The notes below the pieces were generated by a model. That model searched no databases. It worked only from the letters and a program-made list of their open reading frames with translations, and had not been told where the DNA came from. A stretch of 64,000 bases of DNA from Tribonema minus. Taxonomy: Eukaryota > Sar > Xanthophyceae > Tribonematales > Tribonemataceae. Shown here in pieces: positions 14,684 to 53,155 of this stretch. The DNA is taken from assembly GCA_017506865.1 (NCBI GenBank), contig JAFCMP010000090.1, forward strand, positions 1,054,001 to 1,118,000. The letters run 5' to 3'. A program made the translations under genes and the position numbers. The first letter of the stretch is position 1; every line of letters starts with the position of its first letter.

Positions 14684-17437
14684 CTATGCCTCTTCCTCAA
14701 CACCAGCTGCTCGGCATAGGTGTTGCGGCCGCGTCCTCCCCAGCAGCATGTTGATGCCGCATATGGCGATGTTCACTGAGGCGTTGATGTCCCTGTCGAT
14801 GAAACGGACTGAGCAGTCCAGGTTGTCGCCCTCTGGTGTACAAGATATGCATCGGAACACACGAGAGCCATTCACCTGAACTAAGTTCTTGCCGCACCCG
14901 CAACAGGCCTTTGAGGTTCGAAACTCATCCATCAACACAACAGGGACTAGGAGGGCGATCGCCCTTATGAGCGCCTTACGAGGCAGAGGACCTCTGCTAC
15001 CGTGCCCAAACTGCGCATTGCCAAAGAACACTACCCTAGTCCACGTCCGCCGGTCCCCGGCTAGGTTATCGCGCATGCGTGTGAGCAGCGCCTCCCTCTC
15101 CTCAGGCTCCGGCCCGATTTTGCGTAGCGCTGCCGCCTCAGCGCTCCGTCCGGCGATCTGTACCGCCATTCTCGATATCTCCCGCATCTTCGCCCTCTTG
15201 GCATCGAAACTTTTGCGTCTCCTCTCCCAAGAAAGCTTCTCCTCCGCCATGGTGATGAAGTGGCTGTGAAGCGTGTTTGTGTAAGCGGCCGCCCCTCCTG
15301 GCGTGCGCATGGACACACTTGATAGTTGAGATATAGCATCACTGTAGCCCGTGTTGTCATGACGCCTCTCACCTTCGAACTTGCGCCACGCCTTGGAGAG
15401 ACTCAAGAACTTGTGATCCGATGCTGACCTGAAGGCAGGCTGTATCTTCTTGAAGTCTTCAGGGGATGTATCGCTTGATATGCGTGCCGCGGCCGCCGTG
15501 TAGAGCAGTTTTTGGCCGGAGTCGACCCCGACTGCTTCGATGAAACACCTCCTGTCCTTCGCGTTGAGGGCGGAGATGAGTTGATCAGATATCTTCTCTG
15601 CAGATCCGAACAGGCCTCTGGTGTGTGTATCTGCCTTGTAGACGTCGTTGATCGATGCGTACCCTTTCTCGATGAGCTCCGTCACACCTGGAATGACGGC
15701 TGCGACTCGCTTGGTGGCGAGGGTGACATTCACCTGAAGGCCGTCGGTGGTGATGTTGTTGACGAACCACGGAGGAGCTTTGTGACCGTACTCGCTGAGG
15801 TCTTCTTCGATTGTCCACTTTTGCCCCCACAGGCATCGTATGCCCCCCCAAGCCAGCTTTCCCTTGCGTCCGAGGGGCTTCATCCGCGTTTCTCCACTTC
15901 TCTCCGCGCCCTTAGGCGTCCTGAGCCTGACCTTGTCATGCAGGTTGAACATGCAGAGCCACCATCCCCTCTCCGTCATGTCTCCCGTTAGCCGCGCCTT
16001 CCAGTCCTTTCTGACTTGGCGGCTGCGTATACCTTCCTGCTGAAGAGCCCTCCATTCCACTCGCGTGCCCCTCGCGTCACTGAGAAAGTCCTTGAGTGTG
16101 GGGACGCGCACAACAGGTTGTATGTTGTCCAGTGCCAGTTCGATTATGCTGGTGACAATGCGGTCATCTAGCGGGAGCATCATAGGGTGTAGCTCTGCGA
16201 CCGGCAGCAGTGTGAAGCGCTTGGGTGGGAACATTGTGCCGGGCGTGCGCCGAGCCTCTAGCAACGCAGTTCTGATGTCTGAAACGCGCCTCTGCAGTCC
16301 GCACCACTGCACCTTCTGCTCCTGGGTCAGATCTCCACCGCCGTTCTCCATTACCCATGCGGGAGGCTCGATAGTGCGGAATGCGGGTAGTTGTTTCTGC
16401 GCTTCCGCCTTGGTCATCACCTTTGCCAGGTAAGGTTGGTCGTTGTTGATGGACGTCCAGAGCAGTTCCTTGGCCACCCTGTACTGCTCGTCCTCGCTCC
16501 TGAAGGCTGCCTCCGTATGCAGGACCCGGGGTTTGTCTCTGTAGATGTTCTTGAAGAATGTGCCCATCTCGTCCACCCGGTCTTCATCTTCGTCCGCGCC
16601 ATCCTCCACCTGAGCCCCCCTGAAACCTTCAGGCGGAGCGACACGGAACGGTTGAAGTCGATTTCTGATGTATGTGAGACCAGACCCCATAGCTACCCTC
16701 CAGTCCTCATGAAGCTGCTGCTGTCCATCGCGGCCTCGGGGGCGCACGAGAAAGTCCTCTACCATGGCAGCAGCCGTGGCGTCGTCCTGAACAGCGCCGG
16801 CTCTCTGCAGTAGCTTCGCACCTGTCTTTATGACGTACGCGAAGTGCTCATCGCGGCGCCTGCTCCACGCGAGCCTCTCCAGGTAGCACATGAGATGATC
16901 CTGGATCCTCGATGTGAAAGACTTAACCACGTGTGCCGTGACGCTCACCTCGTACTGCTTCGTGAAGACATCTGAGGTGCGCAGAATGAAGTCACGCTTG
17001 TACTGCTCTGGGAAGGGGTGGTCTCGGATGTACGCGTCGATGAAGTCGTCCTGCAGCCGCTCTGCATCCGCCTGGTAGGTGCCGCCTATCATCTGCTTGA
17101 ACACCTGGGAGACCATGTTTCGATCGTAGAAGAAGGGCTCGGCAGGATCTTGTTCTGCTTTGGCGTTGAGAGCGATGGTGACTGCATGACACAAGGCGCC
17201 TGACGAATTGGAGGATCTTACGACTTGCTGGTGCAGTGCCATGGCAGCCTCGCTGTCGCCACGTCTGGTCACAGCGTTCCATGATGTCATGACCGTCTTG
17301 ACGTTGTAAACACCGTTGTCAGGGGCCTCAAAATTTTCGAGATCTAGTACTACCTGTTGGCATGGCTTATATGCTTTCTTCTTCTTCTTGGACGCCTTCT
17401 TGGCCTTGGCCACTTTCTTAGACACCGCCTTCGCCAT
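14684..17437 (-). CDS. Fanzor-type RNA-guided nuclease (TnpB relative), 917 aa
   Basis: The C-terminal part has the TnpB/Fanzor catalytic region. It contains a RuvC-I strand with VGVDSG at about residue 637, a GNAQFGHG segment at about 804, then DEFRTSK followed by a zinc ribbon CCGCG...CISC, and a RuvC-III motif DRDINASVNIA at about 882. The first 30 residues are a lysine-rich nuclear-localisation-like stretch. The length and DEFRTSK spelling fit Fanzor1 proteins of eukaryotes and giant viruses, which cut DNA guided by an RNA encoded at or beyond the 3' end of the gene. I cannot place the RuvC-II glutamate with certainty. No terminal inverted repeats were recognised. Confidence 0.85.
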   Translation of the reverse strand: MAKAVSKKVAKAKKASKKKKKAYKPCQQVVLDLENFEAPDNGVYNVKTVMTSWNAVTRRGDSEAAMALHQQVVRSSNSSGALCHAVTIALNAKAEQDPAEPFFYDRNMVSQVFKQMIGGTYQADAERLQDDFIDAYIRDHPFPEQYKRDFILRTSDVFTKQYEVSVTAHVVKSFTSRIQDHLMCYLERLAWSRRRDEHFAYVIKTGAKLLQRAGAVQDDATAAAMVEDFLVRPRGRDGQQQLHEDWRVAMGSGLTYIRNRLQPFRVAPPEGFRGAQVEDGADEDEDRVDEMGTFFKNIYRDKPRVLHTEAAFRSEDEQYRVAKELLWTSINNDQPYLAKVMTKAEAQKQLPAFRTIEPPAWVMENGGGDLTQEQKVQWCGLQRRVSDIRTALLEARRTPGTMFPPKRFTLLPVAELHPMMLPLDDRIVTSIIELALDNIQPVVRVPTLKDFLSDARGTRVEWRALQQEGIRSRQVRKDWKARLTGDMTERGWWLCMFNLHDKVRLRTPKGAERSGETRMKPLGRKGKLAWGGIRCLWGQKWTIEEDLSEYGHKAPPWFVNNITTDGLQVNVTLATKRVAAVIPGVTELIEKGYASINDVYKADTHTRGLFGSAEKISDQLISALNAKDRRCFIEAVGVDSGQKLLYTAAAARISSDTSPEDFKKIQPAFRSASDHKFLSLSKAWRKFEGERRHDNTGYSDAISQLSSVSMRTPGGAAAYTNTLHSHFITMAEEKLSWERRRKSFDAKRAKMREISRMAVQIAGRSAEAAALRKIGPEPEEREALLTRMRDNLAGDRRTWTRVVFFGNAQFGHGSRGPLPRKALIRAIALLVPVVLMDEFRTSKACCGCGKNLVQVNGSRVFRCISCTPEGDNLDCSVRFIDRDINASVNIAICGINMLLGRTRPQHLCRAAGVEEEA

Positions 17438-37201: not shown

Positions 37202-38893
37202 TTACACAGCTACGCGCCACTTGAACTCTCTGAGGACCAGATCACCGTTGATGGCGCTCTGAAGCGTCCTCAGGGAAACAGCGATCTTGGCGCAAACATG
37301 CTCCTGAGATCCATGCCGCGCGACCACAGCCCCTGTCACCGGGTCGAGCTGCTCTATCTCCGTCGCGTGATTCTGCTTGGCGTTCGGCAGGTCGCCGTCG
37401 TATGACATGCGCAGCTCATTGCTCAACTCGTCCCAGGGCTGATAGTACAACCCGGCTTTGCCAACAGCGTTTCCAGCCTCCATCTGTGTGAAGAAGCTTG
37501 TCACCGACTGATACCCAAGGCCTTCAGCCACGGTCGAGCGATTGCGATAGACTTTCAGCACGCTAGCCTTGTCGGCACTGAGCTCCGCAATGAGACCAGT
37601 CTTGTACTTCTTCGAAGGTGTTGTTTCCTTCAGCTCCTGCACCGTGTCGTCAGGGAGATCCCTGTTAAGGTAGGCCCACCGAAAACCCTTGTATGCACAC
37701 CCGTCATATATTGCATTGCGCAGGGATGATGCGCTGACGCTCTCCGGCAGCGTGGTATCCCTGGTCGCCTTGCAGAGCTGTGAGTATGTATGCAGCAGTG
37801 TTTTGCCGTCCGCGCTATAGCGCTGGATTTTATTACCCTTGCAGTCTGAGATGCAAAATCCCCTCTTGTTGGACATCTGCACAATGGCCTTCTCTCCGGC
37901 TTCACCTGTATCATGCTCTGCCAACCCGCTGGGTGCCGAATCCTTTTCCGGAAGCTCGACTCCCATGGCATCCGCCAGCGCGTCAACCTTGGCATGGAGG
38001 TGCAGCAGCTCCTCATGAACCTTGCCTTTGACAAATCTAGGCGCATTCTTGCGTCCTATGTTGACAAGTAGAGATATCGTGTCATCATCGAGCAAGAAAA
38101 CTTCGGTGCTCTTCTTGCCGTCCACGATGTCTTCTCGGTACCTGTGTTTTTTAAGTTTGTGGTGTAGCTGCATGAACCTTTCAAACTCCAGATTGCGGGA
38201 GACCGGAAAGACCTCAAACACTGTGAAGGAGCCGCCGTACTCACGAGTGAGCGTCTTGCACCGTTGCTTGAGGGTGCTGGTAGAACCGATCTTGACGAGA
38301 GTCGCATCGCCCTTTCGACATATCTTGCCAAGGTACACCACACTGCAGCCCTCGTGCGCCTCGGTGAACATATTGTGCATACGTAGCTCCTCCTTTGCCT
38401 TGAAGTCCCGCGCCACGGCTGCTTCGGCACTGTGCATGGCTTCCTTTAGCTCTGCTTCTTTCGCTAAAATCACAGCCTCCACCTCCAGGCCCCTCTGGTC
38501 AAGCCTGGCCTTGAGCTCCGCCACCTCCTGCTCCTTCGCAGCAATGATGGACGCAGAGTGCTCATTGACGTCGTACTTTCCAGTCTCGTGAATGGTGGCG
38601 ATGACTGAGCACACCCACTTCTGGAATGGACGCGCAATTGGCTTGTTGCTTCGCATGACCAGACGGTAGGCGCCCACCTCTGTCAAGAAATTGACCATTT
38701 TGGGTCCAAAAGCAGTATCACTTTTAACTATGGTGCTCTCATCGTCATCAAAGTCTCGTATCGCATGGGGGACATTGCTCAGTCCGAGCACCTTTCCTAC
38801 ATCGCCGGCGCGGAACAGGGGCTTCCCATCTTGTTCAATGATGCGTACCTCATACGCACAGTCATCAAACATGAAGTTTTTCAAGAAGTCCAT
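37202..38893 (-). CDS. BRO-N / GIY-YIG-like (T5orf172) / NUMOD protein, 563 aa
   Basis: Residues 1-105 are a BRO-N DNA-binding domain (VGKVLGLSNVPHAIRDF, VMRSNKPIARPFQKWV). After a coiled coil, residues about 185-255 match T5orf172/MUG113-type GIY-YIG-like domains (VKIGSTSTLKQRCKTL). The C-terminal part has two or three NUMOD1-like modules that start IQRYS or pair a small helix with a final RGYKF-like turn. The whole resembles mobile-element-linked DNA-binding nucleases of large DNA viruses. It shares architecture and about the same length with the gene at 42787; the two lie either side of the capsid gene in opposite orientations. Confidence 0.85.
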   Translation of the reverse strand: MDFLKNFMFDDCAYEVRIIEQDGKPLFRAGDVGKVLGLSNVPHAIRDFDDDESTIVKSDTAFGPKMVNFLTEVGAYRLVMRSNKPIARPFQKWVCSVIATIHETGKYDVNEHSASIIAAKEQEVAELKARLDQRGLEVEAVILAKEAELKEAMHSAEAAVARDFKAKEELRMHNMFTEAHEGCSVVYLGKICRKGDATLVKIGSTSTLKQRCKTLTREYGGSFTVFEVFPVSRNLEFERFMQLHHKLKKHRYREDIVDGKKSTEVFLLDDDTISLLVNIGRKNAPRFVKGKVHEELLHLHAKVDALADAMGVELPEKDSAPSGLAEHDTGEAGEKAIVQMSNKRGFCISDCKGNKIQRYSADGKTLLHTYSQLCKATRDTTLPESVSASSLRNAIYDGCAYKGFRWAYLNRDLPDDTVQELKETTPSKKYKTGLIAELSADKASVLKVYRNRSTVAEGLGYQSVTSFFTQMEAGNAVGKAGLYYQPWDELSNELRMSYDGDLPNAKQNHATEIEQLDPVTGAVVARHGSQEHVCAKIAVSLRTLQSAINGDLVLREFKWRVAV

Positions 38894-39105: not shown

Positions 39106-41969
39106 ATGACCGCTTCAGGAGGTGAATAATGACGCCTTCAACAGGGGGTGGCGGACTCGCGAGGGTCCTTTAAACGAAGGGCGATGTAACGTCCTGCCAT
39201 GGGTCCCCCTAGTCGGCCTGCACATCGAACTAGTTACTGCAAAAGCACAAACCAAGTGGTGTCAGGTGGTAGGTTGGCGACGGCCAACACCTAGAAGTAG
39301 CCAAAAAGGCTACGTGAACAGGCGAGCTTTGTGAAAACGTGTCAACATTCATCGTTTAAGGTGGACAAGACCGTCGGTTCTAGCCTCTCGTGAGGGAGAC
39401 AACAGGATCGCTACAGACTGCGTCACAAAGCCGTCTTCTGCTCAATGAATGCAGAAGGCGTAATGTACAGTCGGGCCCCGGCAAGCTGGCTTCCTCATCG
39501 AAGGAAGTCTGTGAGCTGGTGCTCGTGTGATCGAGCAGATTGAAAATTGAAGCTCGGGAAGCACGAGGCCCATACCTAGGAGGCTTAGATGAGCCCAATA
39601 ACTGGACTGGGCCTCCTGAAGTATGGGTGATAAGTGGTTATTCAGATAGCAGCTGAAACAAAGGCTTAAGGAGGGTGAATTACTTGTTCCGCACAACAAG
39701 CGCACTCCTTTGGTCACGGGCTGCAACAGGGGGCGGCGGAGTCGCGAGGCTCCAATGGATTGGCGAATTGACGTCAAGCCGTGAAACCTCCTAGTCTGCG
39801 ATGATCTCGGGCGGCTGAATATCGGCCGTGGGACGTCGTGGTACGCAGACTACAATCTGCACCTAGGCTCTGTTAAACGCGCGTGGCGCTCACCACACGT
39901 GCAAGAGCTGGAAAAGGCAAGGCCGGTGAAAACGTGTCAAAATTTGAAGTCTACAAGTCAAACAAGACCGTAGGTTCTGGTCACTCGTGAGAGTGGCAAC
40001 AGGATCTCTAGAGACTGGGTCTCCGGCCGGTGGGTGTCTTCACATTAGTGAAAACCCTGCTCAATGTACAGTCCAAGTAACTCTCAGTTTCCGTCGTTAA
40101 CTGCGAGTCTGATGTGATCGCGGCAATTGAAAATTGAGTCGCGGGAAGCATCAGAGTGGAGTGCTTACAATCCCATAAGCAGCTCCATCTACTAGCGTGG
40201 CAGCCAAGATGCTGTTCTCAACGATAACCCTAGTCATACGATATGGAAAAGCGTGCACACACGCTTCACTTCCTGCGCTCTAGATGATGAGTTCCAGGAA
40301 CTCTCGACTAGCGGCTTTGCGTCCACCAGTACCGCCACCATCTCCCGTTATGGTGACCTGGTGAGCCGTATTACCCTCGAAATTGTGCTTCCTCCTCTTT
40401 CTGCCCCCGACATCCCTGACACCTCCGCTGGAGCGCCGGCCGGGGCACTGTACGCCGATACTGGCGCCCACTATGTCAACTGCATCGGCTTCGCTGCCTG
40501 GGAGGATTGCATCATCGAGATCGGCGGGTCTACTGTCGACCAGCTGTTCAGCGACTTCTGCTTCATCTATGAGGAGCTCGCTGGGCGCGCCGGCATGCGT
40601 CTCGAGGAGGCCATCGGGCGTGTGCCCTTCAGCGCCGATGTCGATGAGGACCTCATTGAGAAGAGCACGCGTGAGCAGACCCTATATGTCCCCCTTCCTC
40701 TGTGGTTCAGTAAGTACCAACCGGCTACATGGGGCTTAGCATTACCTATTGTAGCACTCAGCTTCCATGAGATCAAGCTGAAGCTGAAGACCCGTTCCAT
40801 TGCAGAGTGTGTTTCCGTCATTTACAAGGATAGTGCTGGCGACTGGCGCCTGTCGGACCTGGCTCCGATCAACGCCACCACTGGCACTGCGCTGGTTAAC
40901 AGCGACATGAAGATCCGCCTCCTTGTCAGCTTTGTTTACCTGGATGTTACCGAACGTAACGCCATGTCCTCGGTGGCCCACTCCTTCCTTATTAACGTCA
41001 CCCAGCGCCAGGTCATGGCTGTCGCCGCTGGCTCGTTCTCCAAGATTGAGAACAAGCTGTTCTTCAACCACCCCTGTTCTTCGCTCCTGTGGTACATGCG
41101 TCCCCTGGACTGGAACACGGAGGGCGGCCGTCGCCGTTTCTCGTGCGGCTATAAGGATAGGTATGATTTCAGCCACCAGCAGCAGGGTTCTGTGGATGCC
41201 ACCAAGGGCCTTCCATGGGGGGACGCTATAGACGCCATCACAACCGCATCTCTTTCCCTTAACGGACACCAGCGCTGGCCACAAGACCAGAACTCAGCCT
41301 ACTTTAGGGTGCTTACGCCGTACACGAGCTGGCGGACGATGCCCACGACCAACATTTACACGTACTCCTTTGCGCTGCAGGCACATGACTGGCAGCCAAC
41401 CGCCCATCTTAACTTCTCGAGGTTCGAAATATTTCAGACCTGAAAAACGGTAGGGATGCGATAAGTGAGATACTCGCATCATAAAACCGATTAGTGGCCT
41501 CACAACACTAGCCACAGCCGTTAGTGGTCTATACGCTTTACGTATAGGCTGCGACACTGCCAAATTGCGGGAATCCCCTTAGAGTCTTTGACTACCACTT
41601 CATTTGAGAAATCTCATGAAGGAACACGGTTAATAGCCGTACCCAAAGGTAATAATGTCAAAGAATTTGGGCAATCCGCAGCCAAGCTCCTAAACTCGTC
41701 ATGTTAGAGTATGGAGAAGGTTCAACGACTAAATGGTAGTGGGTCCGAGCGGGCTAACACTCCGCAATGACGGCTTAAGATATAGTCTAGTCCCTGATGA
41801 ACAGCATTCATCACAAATATCCCGAAAGGGAGGGTGTCAACGAGATCACGTTTCGCTGGGATTGACCTTCGCCGCCGGCATCAAAGCCAGCGAGCTCATC
41901 GCTATGGTTGAAAGCTACAATCTTTTGATTATAGCCAACGGCCTGGGTGGATTGAAGTTCTCAAATTAA
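39106..41969 (+). CDS. MCP: Major capsid protein (double jelly roll), four exons, 465 aa
   Basis: Exons: 39106-39123, 39674-39710, 40215-41430 and 41843-41969; the sum is 1398 nt, or 466 codons. Joined, the N-terminus has the spacing of NCLDV capsid proteins: a GG pair, LV five residues after the first of these G residues, then L-x-x-NP 10-14 residues on and a WK pair. ISRYGDLVSRITLEIVLP and FNFSR-type LNFSRF...VSLGLTF motifs follow, and the end is IANGLGGLKFSN. Four strands of evidence agree: frame continuity, family motifs restored at each junction, group I cores between the exons, and one P1 helix with the expected U-G pair. Exon borders inside introns 2 and 3 could be off by a few nucleotides. 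Confidence 0.9.
39124..39673 (+). other. Group I intron 1 of capsid gene (550 nt)
   Basis: The end of exon 1 (GGAGGU) pairs fully with GCCUUC ten nucleotides into the intron, with a U-G pair at the splice site as required for a group I P1 helix. A core resembling P3 to P7 is visible (AAGACCGTCGG; ACAGACTGC paired with ATGTACAGTCGG). The intron ends in G. It contains no nuclease gene. It is homologous to intron 2. Confidence 0.82.
39711..40214 (+). other. Group I intron 2 of capsid gene (504 nt)
   Basis: Shares several blocks with intron 1: CAACAGGGGG then CGGAGTCGCGAGG near the 5' end, GTGAAAACGTGTCAA, CAAGACCGTAGGTTCT, AATGTACAGTC, and TTGAAAATTGAG...CGGGAAGCA near the 3' end. The splice borders were chosen to restore the conserved capsid N-terminal spacing; P1 is weaker than in intron 1. 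Confidence 0.78.
41431..41842 (+). other. Group I intron 3 of capsid gene (412 nt)
   Basis: Carries the classic group I P7 pair: GACTAAATGG at about 41726 and AAGATATAGTC at about 41777. It ends in G and rejoins the frame to give the conserved capsid segment before VSLGLTF. It belongs to a different group I lineage from introns 1 and 2 and also lacks a nuclease gene. Confidence 0.82.
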
Positions 41970-42786: not shown

Positions 42787-44544
42787 ATGGACACATTCTT
42801 CAGGGACTTCGTTCTCGGCGACAAGGCGCACAAGGTGACCATTTTGTGGGAGGATGGCGACCCGCTCATCAAGGCAAGCGATGTGGCTGATGTTCTTGAT
42901 ATGAGCAACATTCGCGAAGCATTAAGGGGAGTGGATGATGAAGATAAGGTTGTAAAAAAGGTTGACACCCATGGCGGTGAGCAGAACTGCGTGTTCCTCA
43001 AAGAAAGCGGGCTTTATCGCATTGTCATGCGATCCAACAAGCCAGCCGCGCGGCCCTTTCAGAAGTGGATGACCCATGTAATCACCACACTACGCAAGGA
43101 AGGGGAGTACAATCTGCAACAGGAAATGGATAAGATGAAGGTCCATGAGGATCATAAGCTGGCAGCACTGCGTGAGGAGTATGCGAATAGGATGCGTGAG
43201 GAGATACACCAGTCGCTGCTCACTGCGGCGGACAACAAGCCGTTGGTGTACTTTGCACGGCTTGAGCATACTGCTGAAGATGGTACAATGCTTGTGAAGA
43301 TAGGAGAGTCCGTCACCTTGCGCCAGCGTGTTCACTCACTCACCACCGAGTATGGCAAACTGCACATCATCAAGGTGTTTCAGTGCCAGCAGAACAAGCT
43401 TTTCGAGCATTTCTTACATGGTCATCCTATGATCAAACCACACAAGTATAGCATGAAGAAGATCCTGGGACACGAGGTGAATGAGGTTTTTGCATTCACT
43501 GACGATCAACTGAAGTCAGCCATCACCACAGCATGCCGAAATGTAAAAACTTACATCAAAGATCCCATAGCCGTGCTGGATAACAAGGTTGATGACGTTG
43601 ACAAGAAGTTGGACGGTGTCGAAGACAAGGTAGACAATCTACAGCAAGATGTCAGCTTGTTGCGTCAAGACATCAAGATGCTCTGTGAGTCGGGGGCAAA
43701 GCGGTCGTCTGACGATGCAGCACTGGACTCTTCTCAGCCTGCGGAAGCAGCATTCCCCGCTGATGCCGCCATTGAGACGGCCACCACGCAGCCAGACGTC
43801 ATATTGCCTCCTGCTCCAAGCAAACGTGGCAATTGCACAAAGATCGGCCACAAGATCCAGCGCTACAATGTACAGGGGGAGCTGCAGGAGACATATGACA
43901 ACCTCATTAGCGTCATGAGGGACCCCAAATTGCAGAGCAGCAACCCAGGCCGCCAGTGCGTCACGGATGCATGCACGTACAACAGCGTGTACAAGGGGTG
44001 GCGCTGGATGAAGCTGGAGCGTGACCAGCCGGACAGCACCGTGCAGGAGCTGCCACCGGTTCAAGAGCGCCGCAAGGTGCACTCTGGCCCGGTCGTCAGC
44101 GTGAACCAGGAGAAGACACGCGTGATGAATGTGTTCCCCTCTATCAAGGCTTTGACCGCTCATATAGGGTTCGCGGACATGGCCAATACCAGCAGGGTCA
44201 TCAAGAGGCAGAAGCTAGTCGCAGACCACTACTACATGTCTTGGGCTGAGGTGAGTGAAGAGATGCAGCAGGAGTGGCTGCAAGACAACACCCTTCCAGA
44301 CTCCACACGCACACACCACCAGCAAAAGAGGGTGACCAAGTTGGACCCTGCCACCGGAAAAGTGCTTTCAGTGTACCAGACCATGGACGAGGCTATCACC
44401 AAACTGGGAGTGTCGCGCGTTTCTCTTCGGAACGCCATAAATGGCGAGAGGCTGCTCAGGGGGTACAAGTTCAAGTACACTGACGCTGCAGCGGCATCAA
44501 CTGCAAGTGCAGCAGGGAATGTAGAGGAGTCAGCAGCATGCTAA
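42787..44544 (+). CDS. BRO-N / GIY-YIG-like (T5orf172) / NUMOD protein, 585 aa
   Basis: ATG 42787 (MDTFFRDF) follows the shared promoter element. Residues 1-105 are BRO-N (VLDMSNIREALRG, VMRSNKPAARPFQKWM). Residues about 155-235 match T5orf172-type GIY-YIG-like domains (VKIGESVTLRQRVHSLTTEYG). A short coiled coil (about 260-300) and a linker follow. Three NUMOD-like modules come next, the last reading KVLSVYQTMDEAITKLGVS and ending RGYKFKY. Its closest relative here is the gene at 37202, with a diverged middle. The family binds DNA and is expanded in NCLDVs, often near mobile elements. Confidence 0.86.
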   Translation: MDTFFRDFVLGDKAHKVTILWEDGDPLIKASDVADVLDMSNIREALRGVDDEDKVVKKVDTHGGEQNCVFLKESGLYRIVMRSNKPAARPFQKWMTHVITTLRKEGEYNLQQEMDKMKVHEDHKLAALREEYANRMREEIHQSLLTAADNKPLVYFARLEHTAEDGTMLVKIGESVTLRQRVHSLTTEYGKLHIIKVFQCQQNKLFEHFLHGHPMIKPHKYSMKKILGHEVNEVFAFTDDQLKSAITTACRNVKTYIKDPIAVLDNKVDDVDKKLDGVEDKVDNLQQDVSLLRQDIKMLCESGAKRSSDDAALDSSQPAEAAFPADAAIETATTQPDVILPPAPSKRGNCTKIGHKIQRYNVQGELQETYDNLISVMRDPKLQSSNPGRQCVTDACTYNSVYKGWRWMKLERDQPDSTVQELPPVQERRKVHSGPVVSVNQEKTRVMNVFPSIKALTAHIGFADMANTSRVIKRQKLVADHYYMSWAEVSEEMQQEWLQDNTLPDSTRTHHQQKRVTKLDPATGKVLSVYQTMDEAITKLGVSRVSLRNAINGERLLRGYKFKYTDAAAASTASAAGNVEESAAC

Positions 44545-45495: not shown

Positions 45496-46269
45496 ATGCC
45501 ACCCGTGGATGGCAATAGCGATGCAGATGATGGCATCACACGCGGCCCCATCAAAAGAGTGAAACCTTCACCTGACGTCATTGACAGCAGATCTTCTACC
45601 AAGTCGACAGAGGGTGCCAGGGATGATTTATACGAAGGTGACGCTTCCAACAAAACATCAGGCGCAACGCATCATGTTGTGACTTTTGCTTGCAACGGTG
45701 TGTGCTACCGGGTAAGGAAGCTAACTGAAGGCAATGAGCTGCTATTTGATGCGGCAGACATGGGCAGCTTGCTGGGATTGAGCAACATACGCGAAATCAT
45801 CAGGTACTTTACATCAGAGGAGAAAACGAAACGGCGAGTGCCAACACCCAGAGGATGTCATATGAAGACAATGTGGACCAACAATGGGGTTAGAAAACTT
45901 GTTTGCCGCAGCCGCAAACCAAACGCAGCACTTCTAGCCAAAAACCTGGGCATCGATGTTTACAGCAACCATTACATGACAGAAGAGGCAGACACTCTGT
46001 CATTCTTGATGCAGGCTTTTGATGGTGAAGAAATCTATACTCAGTATGCAGTCGGGCCCTACGTCATTGACATGTACTTTCCTCGTGTCAAACTTGCAAT
46101 TGAGTGTGATGAGGAATCTCATCATAAGAGAAGCAACGTGGAAGCTGACCTTCGTCGCCAAAGGCACATTGAGGAGCTTCTAGGGTGTTCGTTCATTCGC
46201 TACCGCCCTCAGAAGGAAAACTTCTCAATGGCAGCACTGGTCAATGCCGTGTGGCTCAAACTGCGCTGA
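45496..46269 (+). CDS. BRO-N fused to a DUF559-like PD-(D/E)XK nuclease, 257 aa
   Basis: After a 55-residue acidic, disordered start, residues about 60-140 are a shortened BRO-N-like domain (LLGLSNIREIIRYF). Residues about 170-255 match the endonuclease fold of DUF559/Vsr-like proteins: YVIDMYFP supplies the first aspartate, LAIECDEESHH supplies E-x-D, and an RRQRHIEELLGCSFIRYRP helix-strand pair follows. The catalytic residues seem intact, so the protein may cut DNA. The promoter and 3' flank resemble those of the neighbouring BRO gene while the C-terminal domain is different, a clear case of domain swapping. Confidence 0.82.
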   Translation: MPPVDGNSDADDGITRGPIKRVKPSPDVIDSRSSTKSTEGARDDLYEGDASNKTSGATHHVVTFACNGVCYRVRKLTEGNELLFDAADMGSLLGLSNIREIIRYFTSEEKTKRRVPTPRGCHMKTMWTNNGVRKLVCRSRKPNAALLAKNLGIDVYSNHYMTEEADTLSFLMQAFDGEEIYTQYAVGPYVIDMYFPRVKLAIECDEESHHKRSNVEADLRRQRHIEELLGCSFIRYRPQKENFSMAALVNAVWLKLR

Positions 46270-49010: not shown

Positions 49011-50142
49011 TCAATGCAGAAGAGCTGGTAATGAAATCGGCATGAAAGCTCTCGTGGCAGTCGGTGCCACTTGCCGTGTGAGGGAGGCCTTTTCGTTCTT
49101 GCTCAAATTCCGCCACCGCAGCGTGAAAAACAAGCGATGTGTGGTTTGCACGTCAGTCGGATTGCCTGCGCCTGCGTGGATCATGTGCGTGTCATATAGC
49201 AGCGTCTTGCTGTGCGTCACTACCAAAGGCATGTGGTTGTTGGCTACGGCGCGTGTATTTTGAGATTTGGGCAACACCATTGTGCCCACGGCTTTGCGGA
49301 GGTCGACAGACACTGCGAAGCATACACTTTTCCTAGCGCCAATGTCGTGGTCGCGGTGCACAGACTGATCAGGGGCCCGAGGCTGCACTACCAGAGCTTC
49401 TATTCTCAGCAGCTCAGGCGGGCCTCCTAGGTACTGCGTCATTGTGTGCAGCAGCTCCTCTGGAAACAAAGCTCGCCACTGCTCAAGTGTGATGTCTGAG
49501 GTGTGGATCGAGTACCCTTGCCTGCCATCCTCGAAGTCGTGTTCTGTTCACAGCCGACTGAGTGGCTCGCATCGTTGCTCTCTGCAGGCCTTGCAGTACA
49601 TGACCCGACAGGCGCAGGGGAGGCGCGCAGTAGCCTTCGCGAGCGAGGGACGCAAGGTCAAGGGGTACCGCTTGTTGCATCTGTACATACCTGTCCCTCG
49701 TTGCCTGCCTGGCCCCTTCATCAGCGCCTCTGGCCTGTGCCGCTCTCTGTCGCTGCTCATGAGTGTACCTGTGCACGACGTCATTCACCATTGCAGTCGA
49801 GTGCAAAGCTCTGATGTGTACAGGTGCCAGCACACGCGCGCACACCACCTCCCTGCTTGTCATTGTGGGCTTCCATCTGGAGTACCCTTCCTGCACCTGT
49901 GCTAGGGTCAGCCCCCTTCTCGCTACCAGCTGACGGTACACGATCCATGGGTTAGGGCTGATACATCTAGCCGGCTTGCCTGGCTTGCGCCGCGTCCTGA
50001 AACACTTTGGGGACATGCAGTTGGGCATTGCATACACTTCGATCGTATGCAACACTTTTTCCTCTTCAAATGTCTCACCTGACGCGCGGCATGAATGCGT
50101 AAACCAGCGGCAATGTGCATGTGCATTTTTATTACTGGTCAT
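49011..50142 (-). CDS. 2-oxoglutarate/Fe(II) dioxygenase-like protein, two exons
   Basis: Exon 1 is 49691-50142 (or from ATG 50026-50028); exon 2 is 49011-49521. Splicing at GTATGT/GGCAG joins the frames in phase 2 and gives 320 aa (or 282). Exon 2 encodes the catalytic core: VHRDHD gives the H-x-D iron ligands, THMIHAG the distal histidine, and RLFFTLRW the arginine for 2-oxoglutarate, as in phytanoyl-CoA-type oxygenases. Exon 1 is a basic, helical region with CMSPKC near its start and SPNPWIVYRQL; it could bind nucleic acid. Substrate unknown. If the intron is wrong, the core would start at the internal ATG before TQYLGG. Confidence 0.65.
49522..49690 (-). other. Spliceosomal-type intron of the dioxygenase gene (169 nt)
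   Basis: Donor GACAG|GTATGTAC and acceptor GGATGGCAG|G on the minus strand. The two reading frames on either side overlap but differ by one; in the downstream frame a TGA lies just upstream of the overlap, and this splice connects the two frames. Confidence 0.5.
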
Positions 50143-50260
50143 CAGTCCAATCTTTGCCGTTGACAGCACATACCTGTATGTTCAACTTAAAATTTGTGAT
50201 TTTGAACTGCAAAATAAATATTGTCACAGTCCAAAGCAGCGCTCACAATCACATCATACA

Positions 50261-53155
50261 ATGCGTCGCGCGCACAGCGCGCTACAGGTGCATGGGTTTC
50301 GACAGTGGATTCTGTGGGGCTACATTGCTTCATTTCCTCTACCATGGCTCATCCTCGCGATTCCTCCACCCGTTTTGCTGATTGCAGCATGGGCCACATT
50401 GACTACAGCAATGGACGTGACAATGTCGCATACACCGGCGGTGATCATGCCCATGTCTAAATTGACACCAACTCTGAAAATGAGAAGGGCGTCAGCGATC
50501 TTCGCATTGCGTATCGGCCGCAGAAAGAGACTGAAAAAATGCAACCATCATGAGCACCAATATATGACAAGCCACCATCACAAGCACAAGTGTACAACGA
50601 GCCACCAGCACGCGCACAAATGTACAACAAGCCACCAGCATGAGCACATATGTACAGCGAGCCACCAGCACGAGCACAAATGTACAGCGAGCCACCAGCA
50701 CGAGCACAAAGAAACCGGCCACCATCACGAGCACAAATGTACAGCGAGCCACCATCACGAGCACAAAGAACCCAGCCACCATCACGAGCACAACTGTACG
50801 ACTACGTCTACCCACCAGCACAGTGTGTGTGCATCAACCACCTATGCATCGGTTCGCGCAAGGGGAGGTAGTGGTTGGATGTTGAGGTGTTTAGTGCTTG
50901 CCACACTGGTCAGCTTCGCTTCTGCAAATGGTGGTGGTGAAGTTGAGGGTGGGACGGTGTTGACGGTTACTGTTGGCACAGTAGTTTCAATTGTTTCCAC
51001 GTTGGTAGGTAGCTTGAAACCGCAACGATCTCAAGCATGCCAAACGATGCAAGGCAGCACGATAAACCCTTCATGTGAAGATGACACAAGTCAACGCCCA
51101 ATGCCGGAGCAAGAGGCTCAAGACATGGCAGCACCACACGCAGCGCATACCAGTCGCAAACGCAAGCGAGTGGGACAAGGTAGTGTAAAAGACGCCAACT
51201 CAAATACCATACAGGTCGTCAAGCTTCCAGGTCTCAAAGTGTGCGCGGCACCGGGGTGTCTGAAACCCACCAAGTGCAAGTGGTGCGAAGATCATAAGAT
51301 CCACAAAACGTGTCGTGAGCCGGGGTGTGAGAGACAGCACCCTGTATACAATTACACTGGTACTGGCGGACAGTGGTGCAGCACTCACAAGAAGGACGGT
51401 ATGGAGAACGTCAGGGACAGGAGGTGCGCCTGTGGCACAGCTCGACCCAGCTTTGGCTTTCCAGACGACGAGCGCGCCTCCTGCTGCGCCAAGTGCAAGG
51501 AAGATGGCATGGTGAACATTAACAGCCCCAAGTGTGCCTGCGGCAAATCTCAGCCCACTTTCGGATTGCCAGGCGACAAGCGCGCCACGCGATGTTCCAA
51601 GTGCAAGGAGGGCGCCATGGTGGACCTAAAGCATCATTTGTGCATCTGTGGCAAAGCTCGTCCCAACTTTGGCTTTCCGGACGACGAGCGCGCCATGCGT
51701 TGCGTTGACTGCAAGGAAGGAGGGATGGTCAACATCACCTGTCGAAGGTGCAACTGCGGCGAGTCACAACCCCATTTTGGGCACGTGGACGACGAGCGCC
51801 CCACTCATTGCGGCAAGTGTAAGGAGGAAGGAATGATTAACATTACCAGCCGGCGCTGTGTCTGCGGCAAGCATCAACCCGTCTTTGGATTTGCTGATGA
51901 CAAGCGTGCCACGTGTTGCTCCAAGTGCAAGGAGGACGGCATGGTTAACATCATGAGCCGGAGGTGCGTGTGTGGCAAGTCAACGGGATGCGCCTTTGGG
52001 TTCCTGGACGACCCGTACGCCACATGCTGCTCCAAGTGCAAGGAGGAAGGGATGATTAATATCACCAGCCGGCGGTGTGTCTGCGGCGAGGTCCAGCCAT
52101 CCTTCGGTTTTCTTGACGATGAGCGCGCCACCTGTTGCGCCAAGTGCAAGGAGGACGGTATGGTCAACATTAGGAGTCGGATGTGTGCCTGCGGTGAGGC
52201 CCAACCATCCTTTGGCTTTCCGGACGACGCACGCCCCACGTGCTGCGCTGGCTGCAGGGAGGAAGGCATGGTGGACATCAGGAGCCATCGGTGCGTGTGC
52301 GCTAAGTCTACGGGACCCCAATTCGGTTTCCCAGACGACGAGCGCCCCACCTGCTGCGCCAAGTGCAAGGAGGAGGGAATGGTGGACATTAAGTGCAAGA
52401 GGTGTGTCTGCGGCGAGGTTCGACCATCTTTTGGCTTGCCTGGGGACGAATGCGCCACACGCTGTGCCCAGTGCAAGCAAGATGGCATGGTCAACATCAA
52501 CTGTCAGTGGTGCCTTTGCGGCAAGTCACAACCCAGCTGCGGCTTTTGGGGCGACGAGCGCCCCACTCGCTGCGGCAAGTGCAAGGAGGATGGCATGACG
52601 GACATCATCAACAAGAGGTGCCCCCATGGCAGGCGGAATTGCCGCGGCGACGTGTGTCACGTCAACAATATCGGCAGCCGTTCGTATGAGGAAATGTTCC
52701 CGAGTGCGACAGCGTTCATCGTGTGGACAGGCAGCGACGTCATCGATGACTACATCAAAGCCATCGCACACCGTCTGACCCTCGGAGACGTCATAGTGTG
52801 CCCCGATTTGCTGGTAGGCGCCAAAGTGTATGAGTACGACGGGTGGCGTTATCACATGGAGAAGGAAGAGGGCGATGGCATCAAGACAGCAGCACTCGTT
52901 AACGCGGGCTACACGGTTCTTCGCACGCGTGACCGGCTGCCCCCCGTGGCCAGGGCCACTAATTTGGAAGTTGATTCCAGATGTGGTGTGAAGTCCATCT
53001 CCCAGAATGTGGCTCAGGCATTGGGAGTAGATGACGTCGAGTGGCCAAACTTGTGGCGTCGCGCCGACAGTCTGGCACGTCGAGCGATTCTCGCTCTTTC
53101 ACAGCGCTACGCACAGACAACGCAGCGGTCAATGGATGACTGGCTCATGCTGTGA
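50261..53155 (+). CDS. EsV-1-7-like repeat protein with C-terminal restriction-like nuclease, 964 aa
   Basis: ATG 50261 opens a protein with, in order: a hydrophobic helix (about 13-50), a His/Cys-rich region of nine-residue-like repeats (SHQHEHKCT, about 90-185), and a second hydrophobic segment with a signal-like MLRCLVLATLVSFASANG (about 207-250). A basic linker follows, then 11 repeats of about 36 residues (CxCGxxQPSFGF...CCxKCKEDGMVNI). These are EsV-1-7-type cysteine repeats, known from Ectocarpus virus EsV-1 and brown algal IMMEDIATE UPRIGHT. The last 170 residues resemble a Vsr/restriction-like domain (VYEYDGWRYH...D...K...GYTVLRTRDRLPP). The part before 50879 may be a separate unit. 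Confidence 0.8.
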   Translation: MRRAHSALQVHGFRQWILWGYIASFPLPWLILAIPPPVLLIAAWATLTTAMDVTMSHTPAVIMPMSKLTPTLKMRRASAIFALRIGRRKRLKKCNHHEHQYMTSHHHKHKCTTSHQHAHKCTTSHQHEHICTASHQHEHKCTASHQHEHKETGHHHEHKCTASHHHEHKEPSHHHEHNCTTTSTHQHSVCASTTYASVRARGGSGWMLRCLVLATLVSFASANGGGEVEGGTVLTVTVGTVVSIVSTLVGSLKPQRSQACQTMQGSTINPSCEDDTSQRPMPEQEAQDMAAPHAAHTSRKRKRVGQGSVKDANSNTIQVVKLPGLKVCAAPGCLKPTKCKWCEDHKIHKTCREPGCERQHPVYNYTGTGGQWCSTHKKDGMENVRDRRCACGTARPSFGFPDDERASCCAKCKEDGMVNINSPKCACGKSQPTFGLPGDKRATRCSKCKEGAMVDLKHHLCICGKARPNFGFPDDERAMRCVDCKEGGMVNITCRRCNCGESQPHFGHVDDERPTHCGKCKEEGMINITSRRCVCGKHQPVFGFADDKRATCCSKCKEDGMVNIMSRRCVCGKSTGCAFGFLDDPYATCCSKCKEEGMINITSRRCVCGEVQPSFGFLDDERATCCAKCKEDGMVNIRSRMCACGEAQPSFGFPDDARPTCCAGCREEGMVDIRSHRCVCAKSTGPQFGFPDDERPTCCAKCKEEGMVDIKCKRCVCGEVRPSFGLPGDECATRCAQCKQDGMVNINCQWCLCGKSQPSCGFWGDERPTRCGKCKEDGMTDIINKRCPHGRRNCRGDVCHVNNIGSRSYEEMFPSATAFIVWTGSDVIDDYIKAIAHRLTLGDVIVCPDLLVGAKVYEYDGWRYHMEKEEGDGIKTAALVNAGYTVLRTRDRLPPVARATNLEVDSRCGVKSISQNVAQALGVDDVEWPNLWRRADSLARRAILALSQRYAQTTQRSMDDWLML
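50540..50830 (+). repeat. 27-bp His-codon tandem repeats
   Basis: About ten imperfect 27-30-bp units (AGCCACCAGCACGAGCACAA type) inside the previous gene encode SHQHEHKC-like peptides. Both perfect and diverged copies are present, indicating repeated expansion. Confidence 0.85.

Follow-up and report, generated by a model that had tools for sequence, protein, structure and literature searches.

The capsid gene (MCP) of an endogenous xanthovirus/phaeovirus-like giant virus of the yellow-green alga Tribonema minus is most probably interrupted by three group I introns that lack long open reading frames (ORFs), and a probability of about 0.87 is given to this explanation as a whole, which is drawn from DNA sequence. 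The gene is located on the forward strand at 39106-41969 of the window, which is the whole stretch of 64,000 nucleotides that was analysed (C90:1054001-1118000) and which lies in a phaeovirus-like endogenous virus. Xanthoviruses are reported to be the sister group of the phaeoviruses and, in the accessible text of the two papers concerned, are so far known from viral genes in xanthophyte genomes (PMC13236599, PMC12993054; both 2026). Both NCLDV capsid domains are recognised by Pfam in the gene (PF16903, 6e-32; PF04451, 4e-29), which bears out the proposal of the first-pass annotation that a capsid gene in four pieces is present here. The PBCV-1 capsid matches the encoded protein at 5e-22, and the nearest named virus among the best 120 of 364 capsid relatives is Feldmannia species virus, with 43% identity. 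Elsewhere in the window, at 50015-53155 (+), a protein with ten EsV-1-7 cysteine motifs is encoded; EsV-1-7 is a family of phaeoviruses and brown algae. The features of the gene and its immediate neighbours are collected in Table 1.

The exon borders were set by intron-free relatives (P0008 of the copy on contig C40, and P0004) and by the empty sites in sister copies of the gene. P0008, with 463 aa, begins MPASGGVIQIAARG, so that MPASGG stands where exon 1 of the window and P0004 have MTASGG. In P0004, which is 83% identical, MTASGGVIQIAARG comes after 17 extra residues, and the two relatives share the ending ...LNFSRLDHVSLG...FSN. With these borders the spliced gene has four exons, 1392 nt and 463 aa, exon 3 contains no stop, and the last exon junction is ...AGGTT/AGATCAC, reading LNFSRL-DHVSLGLTF. 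A U precedes the 5' border and a G stands at the 3' end of all three introns. The relatives uphold the 18-nt first exon that had been annotated earlier but correct other details of that model: the second exon is 18 nt and not 37 nt long, as the empty sites also indicate, the exons add up to 1392 nt rather than 1398 nt, and LNFSRL is joined to DHVSLGLTF where LNFSRF had been joined to VSLGLTF.

Table 1. Positions in the window of the capsid gene, its predicted introns and the adjacent BRO-N genes
Feature	Position	Strand	Remarks
BRO-N + T5orf172 protein, divergent from MCP	37202..38893	-	Pfam matches over cut-off
MCP exon 1, MTASGG	39106..39123	+	18 nt; same residues in P0004; P1 target GGAGGU
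Predicted group I intron 1	39124..39636	+	513 nt, without long ORF; covariation, P1/P10
Intron 1 P10 strand AAUGAC	39128..39133	+	6/6 pairs with first 6 nt of exon 2
Intron 1 guide GCCUUC	39134..39139	+	6/6 pairs with GGAGGU, including U·G at splice site
Intron 1 predicted catalytic core P3-P8	39321..39475	+	covariation; model R1 149.4 bits (R1 building sequence)
MCP exon 2, VIQIAA	39637..39654	+	18 nt; residues identical in P0004 and P0008
Predicted group I intron 2	39655..40195	+	541 nt, without long ORF; covariation, P1/P10
Intron 2 P10 strand GUCACG and guide GGCUGC	39713..39724	+	6/6 pairs each
Intron 2 predicted catalytic core P3-P8	39916..40076	+	covariation; model R1 148.9 bits (R1 building sequence)
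MCP exon 3	40196..41424	+	1229 nt; Capsid_N and Capsid_NCLDV; dN/dS 0.03-0.11
Predicted group I intron 3	41425..41842	+	418 nt; RF00028 match 41512-41816, 84.3 bits; U at -1, terminal G
MCP exon 4 to stop, DHVSLGLTF...LKFSN	41843..41969	+	border from intron-free relatives
Second BRO-N protein, downstream of MCP	42787..44544	+	29% identical to first; T5orf172 below cut-off

Sister copies of the gene were found in the genome (158 Mb in 554 contigs searched), and together they define seven intron sites, designated A and 1 to 6. The window copy (C90) has introns at sites 1, 2 and 3, the C179 copy at A, 2, 3, 4 and 5, the C21 copy at A, 1, 3, 4, 5 and 6, and the C112 copy at 1 and 6; the C40 copy has none, and C541 holds only a 3' capsid fragment with intron 3. 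The family to which introns 1 and 2 belong occupies six of the sites, at the two ends of the gene (A, 1, 2 and 4, 5, 6). The exons left between introns measure 18 nt on C90, 13 nt on C179 and C21 (between sites 4 and 5) and 9 nt on C21 (between sites 5 and 6), and the first exon on C179 and C21 comprises 8 nt from the ATG. Over the 16 introns of these copies, the longest stop-free stretch on either strand is 125 codons. By eye, P0001, the protein deposited for the C21 copy, has stretches of translated intron at the N-terminal end and close to the C-terminus. GT-AG introns, located elsewhere in the gene, are found in two further capsid copies, C144 (L007) and C223 (L032), and one host thus has capsid genes with two kinds of intron. 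For C485 (L008) the match figures equal those of C144, and C223 has a second capsid copy (L033) for which the start was not found.

The assignment to group I follows different routes for the two kinds of intron. Intron 3 is recognised by the Rfam model RF00028 (E 5e-20), and a genome-wide search, in which 26 of 1072 first-look candidates were scored and which thus gives a lower bound, located at least four matching places, each of which is intron 3, either in a capsid gene or beside the C541 capsid fragment. For introns 1 and 2, as for 11 relatives of them, RF00028 finds nothing at E values up to 10. The Rfam check suggested in the first-pass annotation was thus positive for intron 3 and negative for introns 1 and 2, an outcome that it had itself set against its claim. 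RF00028 is a search model and not a definition of the group I class, and the group I nature of introns 1 and 2 is based on a covariation count and on P1/P10 pairing. With these, the earlier claim that the capsid gene has three group I introns is supported, and sequence comparison confirms that two related introns precede the main frame while a third, unrelated one sits near the 3' end.

For the covariation count, the cores of introns 1 and 2 and of their 11 relatives were aligned, and P3, P4, P5, P6, P6a, P7 and P8 were assigned by hand. In the resulting P3-P8 core with its P3/P7 pseudoknot, 94.2% of the 553 helix cells are paired. The number of pairs changed on both sides is 27 of 43, as against 17.9 in shuffled alignments, and the covariation score is 0.579 as against 0.199 ± 0.017, a value reached by none of 500 shuffles, although the structure was drawn from the same sequences on which it was counted, which favours it. 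With the structure slid along the alignment the score is 0.10-0.16 (at most 0.158). One of the five measures, the number of further pair types, is not above chance (56 against 52.5, reached in 92 of the 500 shuffles). P7 is 100% paired, its first pair being C-G, U-A, A-U or G-C. Chance can hardly account for an effect of this size and for a fully paired P7 whose first pair takes four different forms. Within P7, columns 110 and 170 form a G-C pair in all 13 introns and the neighbouring column 109 is unpaired; this conserved pair is presumably the guanosine-binding G-site.

The splice-site helices were read by taking the guide as the six bases ahead of the motif AACAG or AAAAG and the P10 strand as the bases immediately before the guide. 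P1 has six of six possible pairs in 11 of the 13 introns and five of six in the two site-A introns, and P10 has six pairs in four introns, five in seven and four in two. When guides of other sites are used as a control, the mean for P1 is 4.1 of 6, with at least five pairs in 48 of 136 combinations and six in 8 of 136; P10 strands of other sites give a mean of 2.3 and at least five pairs in only 4 of 140. Judged by these controls, P10 tests the model strongly and P1, taken alone, weakly. The splice-site pairing of intron 3 was read by eye.

A terminal G is present in 15 of the 16 introns at the placement listed, the exception being the site-1 intron of C112 (C112_1), which is non-canonical either way: it has U·G with a terminal A or, shifted by one, a terminal G with an exon-final G. 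Site A has three placements with the same exon join, one of which alone ends in G. At this placement an exon C lies opposite a guide A in the site-A introns of C179 and C21, so that C·A replaces U·G; Doudna and colleagues reportedly found in 1989 that C·A is able to replace U·G in the Tetrahymena intron. For site A, an alternative border after a 10-nt exon with a final U was dropped, since the intron so delimited ends in T and not in G.

These pairings suggest how splicing would proceed. In introns 1 and 2 the guide is complementary to the final six bases of the upstream exon (P1), and the strand ahead of the guide to the first six of the downstream exon (P10); a bound guanosine would attack after the last U of the exon, and the freed exon would then attack after the terminal G, joining the exons to encode the 463-aa capsid protein. 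In the 9-nt exon of C21, the P10 of intron 5, which takes the first five bases, and the P1 of intron 6, which takes the last six, overlap by two bases. The two helices therefore cannot coexist, and introns 5 and 6 of C21 would be spliced in order.

Within each site the introns of this family seem to be passed on by descent, and their gain or loss between virus lineages seems to be clean. In the intron tree, sites A, 2, 4, 5 and 6 each form a pair of their own (support 87/93 for A, 93/97 for 5 and over 95 for the others), and at site 1 the C90 and C21 introns are paired, with C112_1 basal to that group. The 3' family (4, 5, 6) is separated from the 5' family (A, 1, 2) with 100% support, at a split where the program warns that long branches meet. 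The window copy and the C179 copy, at dS 0.21, differ at sites A, 1, 4 and 5, or four of the seven. Exon 3 of these two copies diverges by 3.5% over its opening 1020 nt and by 11.0% over the closing 209 nt, and the figure for the opening 87 nt of exon 4 is 13.8%; between the more divergent stretches intron 3 has only 12 substitutions in 418 (Fisher 2.5e-6). The last 209 nt of exon 3 are also more variable between C21 and C90 or C179 (20-21% against 16-17%). This pattern may reflect recombination with an intron-free allele together with movement of intron 3, other readings being possible.

Gain and loss probably took place by recombination with intron-free alleles, by trans homing by neighbouring endonuclease-like genes, or by both. 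The T5orf172 domain of the BRO-N protein divergent from the capsid gene is presumably GIY-YIG-like, and it is possible that this protein is a trans-acting homing enzyme. On C21 a protein near the capsid gene is 28% identical to it, a BRO-like ORF was seen by eye near the capsid gene of C179, and an HNH_3 protein is encoded near that of C112. BRO genes are common in the virus, so their adjacency to capsid genes may be due to chance. Two further genes of the window fall outside Table 1. A 257-aa protein at 45496-46269 (+) matches DUF559 (restriction-endonuclease-like) over the cut-off and BRO-N and MTES_1575 just below it, and a 917-aa ORF at 14684-17437 (-), with weak TnpB/Cas12f1-like matches in its C-terminal part that are all below curated cut-offs, is possibly a Fanzor-like protein.

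Spread by guide-directed reverse splicing into matching hexamers, instead of by homing endonucleases, is conceivable though rather doubtful. The introns have no long ORF, and sites 1 and 6 have the target GGAGGU or GGUGGU in common, together with near-identical guides, as such a process would predict. However, the site 1 and site 6 introns fall on opposite sides of the best-supported split of the tree, so that the shared guide looks convergent, and all full-length copies found sit in capsid genes.

It is rather unlikely that the introns are relics in a dead provirus, with a fold that is a remnant and a gene that is no longer spliced. The window copy is an integrated one, in an algal chromosome, and is possibly not expressed, C112_1 is non-canonical and C541 is reduced to its fragment; the window introns nevertheless retain U·G, the terminal G, complete P1 and P10 pairing and paired cores. 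The dN/dS of exon 3 over 393 codons is 0.034 between C90 and C179 (dS 0.21), 0.056-0.057 between these two and C21, 0.084-0.109 in pairs with C112 and 0.25-0.36 against the distant C40, where dS among the four intron-bearing copies is 0.21-1.65 and near saturation beyond C90-C179. These low values indicate that the capsid protein was under selection while introns came and went, and that splicing presumably worked in replicating viruses, although the selection seen in the stop-free, conserved exon 3 may predate integration and says nothing of present activity. It is plausible that an essential, highly expressed capsid gene depends on three self-splicing events, and the purifying selection on exon 3 favours such dependence during viral replication.

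Removal of some or all of the introns by the algal spliceosome is very improbable and was rejected for the set, since GT-AG occurs in none of the 16 introns at placements yielding the predicted exon join, 11 of the 16 (including window introns 2 and 3 and the C21 site-1 intron) have no frame-keeping GT..AG nearby, and the group I core, P1 and P10 are present; a reservation applies to the other five (win_1, C179_4, C21_4, C21_5 and C112_1), where a GT..AG that keeps the frame lies no more than 9 nt from the borders and, at window intron 1, would yield an equally long product differing in one residue. The GT-AG introns of the C144 and C223 copies speak for such removal, as do the reported spliceosomal introns of the EVEc capsid gene (PMC13236599).

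Relatives of the group I family were also sought outside these copies. By a C-terminal motif, 45 of the best 120 of 364 capsid relatives were readable, and 12 odd tails were tested against the introns. In P0002 and P0050, from other sources, the capsid sequence runs at site 5 into sequence resembling translated introns of sites 4-6, with best E values of 6.7e-9 and 6.4e-9 (4e-8 in a separate search with P0002), suggesting that relatives of the family probably exist in other viruses. P0032 has two weak matches (E 0.004) in a 15-residue stretch and P0044 has one at 0.010, while eight of the 12 tails gave no intron match and reversed tails gave none. Three phaeovirus-like proteins of 43-44% identity, P0026, P0032 and P0033, diverge just past ...GMGG, which is site 6, and have similar tails, possibly from an intron of another kind; of the three, P0032 alone matched the introns. 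Introns 1, 2, 4 and 6 also served as queries in DNA searches that scored the best candidates, and these returned the capsid introns and one fragment on C13 only. This fragment (L022, C13:384743-384848) is 106 bp long and shares 85% identity with a stretch of intron 2 (query 389-493), and model R1 finds no core in it. A short core pattern occurs at 33 places in the genome, as against 17 for the reversed pattern, and eight of the 33 are known capsid introns. On 25 loci (22 of the pattern places, three of the 33 being left out, with the C13 region and two C541 loci) R1 gave a single match of 8.3 bits (E 1.1), and it found no intron beyond its 13 building sequences. No relative was confirmed in IMG/VR by capsid protein, alignment and core pattern searches, and none was found among the INPHARED phages.

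Comparison with known systems extends as far as the accessible text of the papers cited. The MCP gene of Faustovirus E12 has 13 exons of 13-527 nt and introns of 396-3256 nt, two of them with GIY-YIG ORFs; five were assigned to group I through Rfam, and the other seven were called spliceosome-like, with AA/TG as the commonest ends (PMC6247863). Both are giant-virus capsid genes with group I introns, but the Tribonema gene belongs to a different virus group, and it contains as many as six group I introns (the C21 copy), all of which lack a long ORF. In Bodo saltans virus, polymerase genes carry 'offspring' group I introns beside parental introns with endonucleases, and splicing was demonstrated by RT-PCR (PMC5871332). 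Group I introns without an endonuclease of their own have likewise spread inside one essential gene there, although those are RNA polymerase genes. In the Ectocarpus EVEc, too, an integrated phaeovirus has a capsid gene with introns, but the EVEc introns, those of this gene included, are reported as spliceosomal, and the accessible part of that paper does not mention group I (PMC13236599). Between tandem group I introns, an exon of 23 nt is described for phage Twort and one of 34 nt for Coxiella (PMC10136302), and a 1-nt exon between group I introns for placozoan cox1 (PMC5436844); those are phage, rRNA or mitochondrial cases, and the exons of 18, 13 and 9 nt belong to a chromosomal viral capsid gene. 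In polinton-like viruses, group I introns are reported from a small gene that immediately precedes the capsid gene (PMC12220804), and in mirusviruses spliceosomal introns are reported from virion genes (PMC12768974). A literature search of titles and abstracts, with subscription journals largely outside it, returned nothing on this Tribonema capsid gene or intron family. Group I introns in a giant-virus capsid gene (Faustovirus) and micro-exons between group I introns are therefore already known, and the Rfam-invisible intron family, the series of seven sites and the C·A splice site are new.

Two of the 16 introns, C179_5 and C21_5, begin with AA and end with TG, which raises the suspicion that some of the Faustovirus AA/TG introns are group I introns missed by Rfam. 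A wider proposal, held at slightly less than even odds, is that an unrecognised group I family, unmatched by Rfam and without long ORFs, colonised both ends of xanthovirus/phaeovirus-like capsid genes (at least six sites), with natural C·A 5' splice sites and a 9-nt exon in which a P10/P1 overlap of about two bases forces the order of splicing, and that similar introns may explain some of those in Faustovirus. Since the family escapes Rfam and translated intron has entered the deposited P0001, misannotation may affect capsid genes of other giant viruses as well. The related capsid copies with their different intron sets form a natural series for the gain and clean loss of group I introns, and a natural test bed for intron spread and for the joining of tiny exons. 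The C·A pair at site A would be a natural counterpart of the results reportedly obtained with the engineered Tetrahymena intron.
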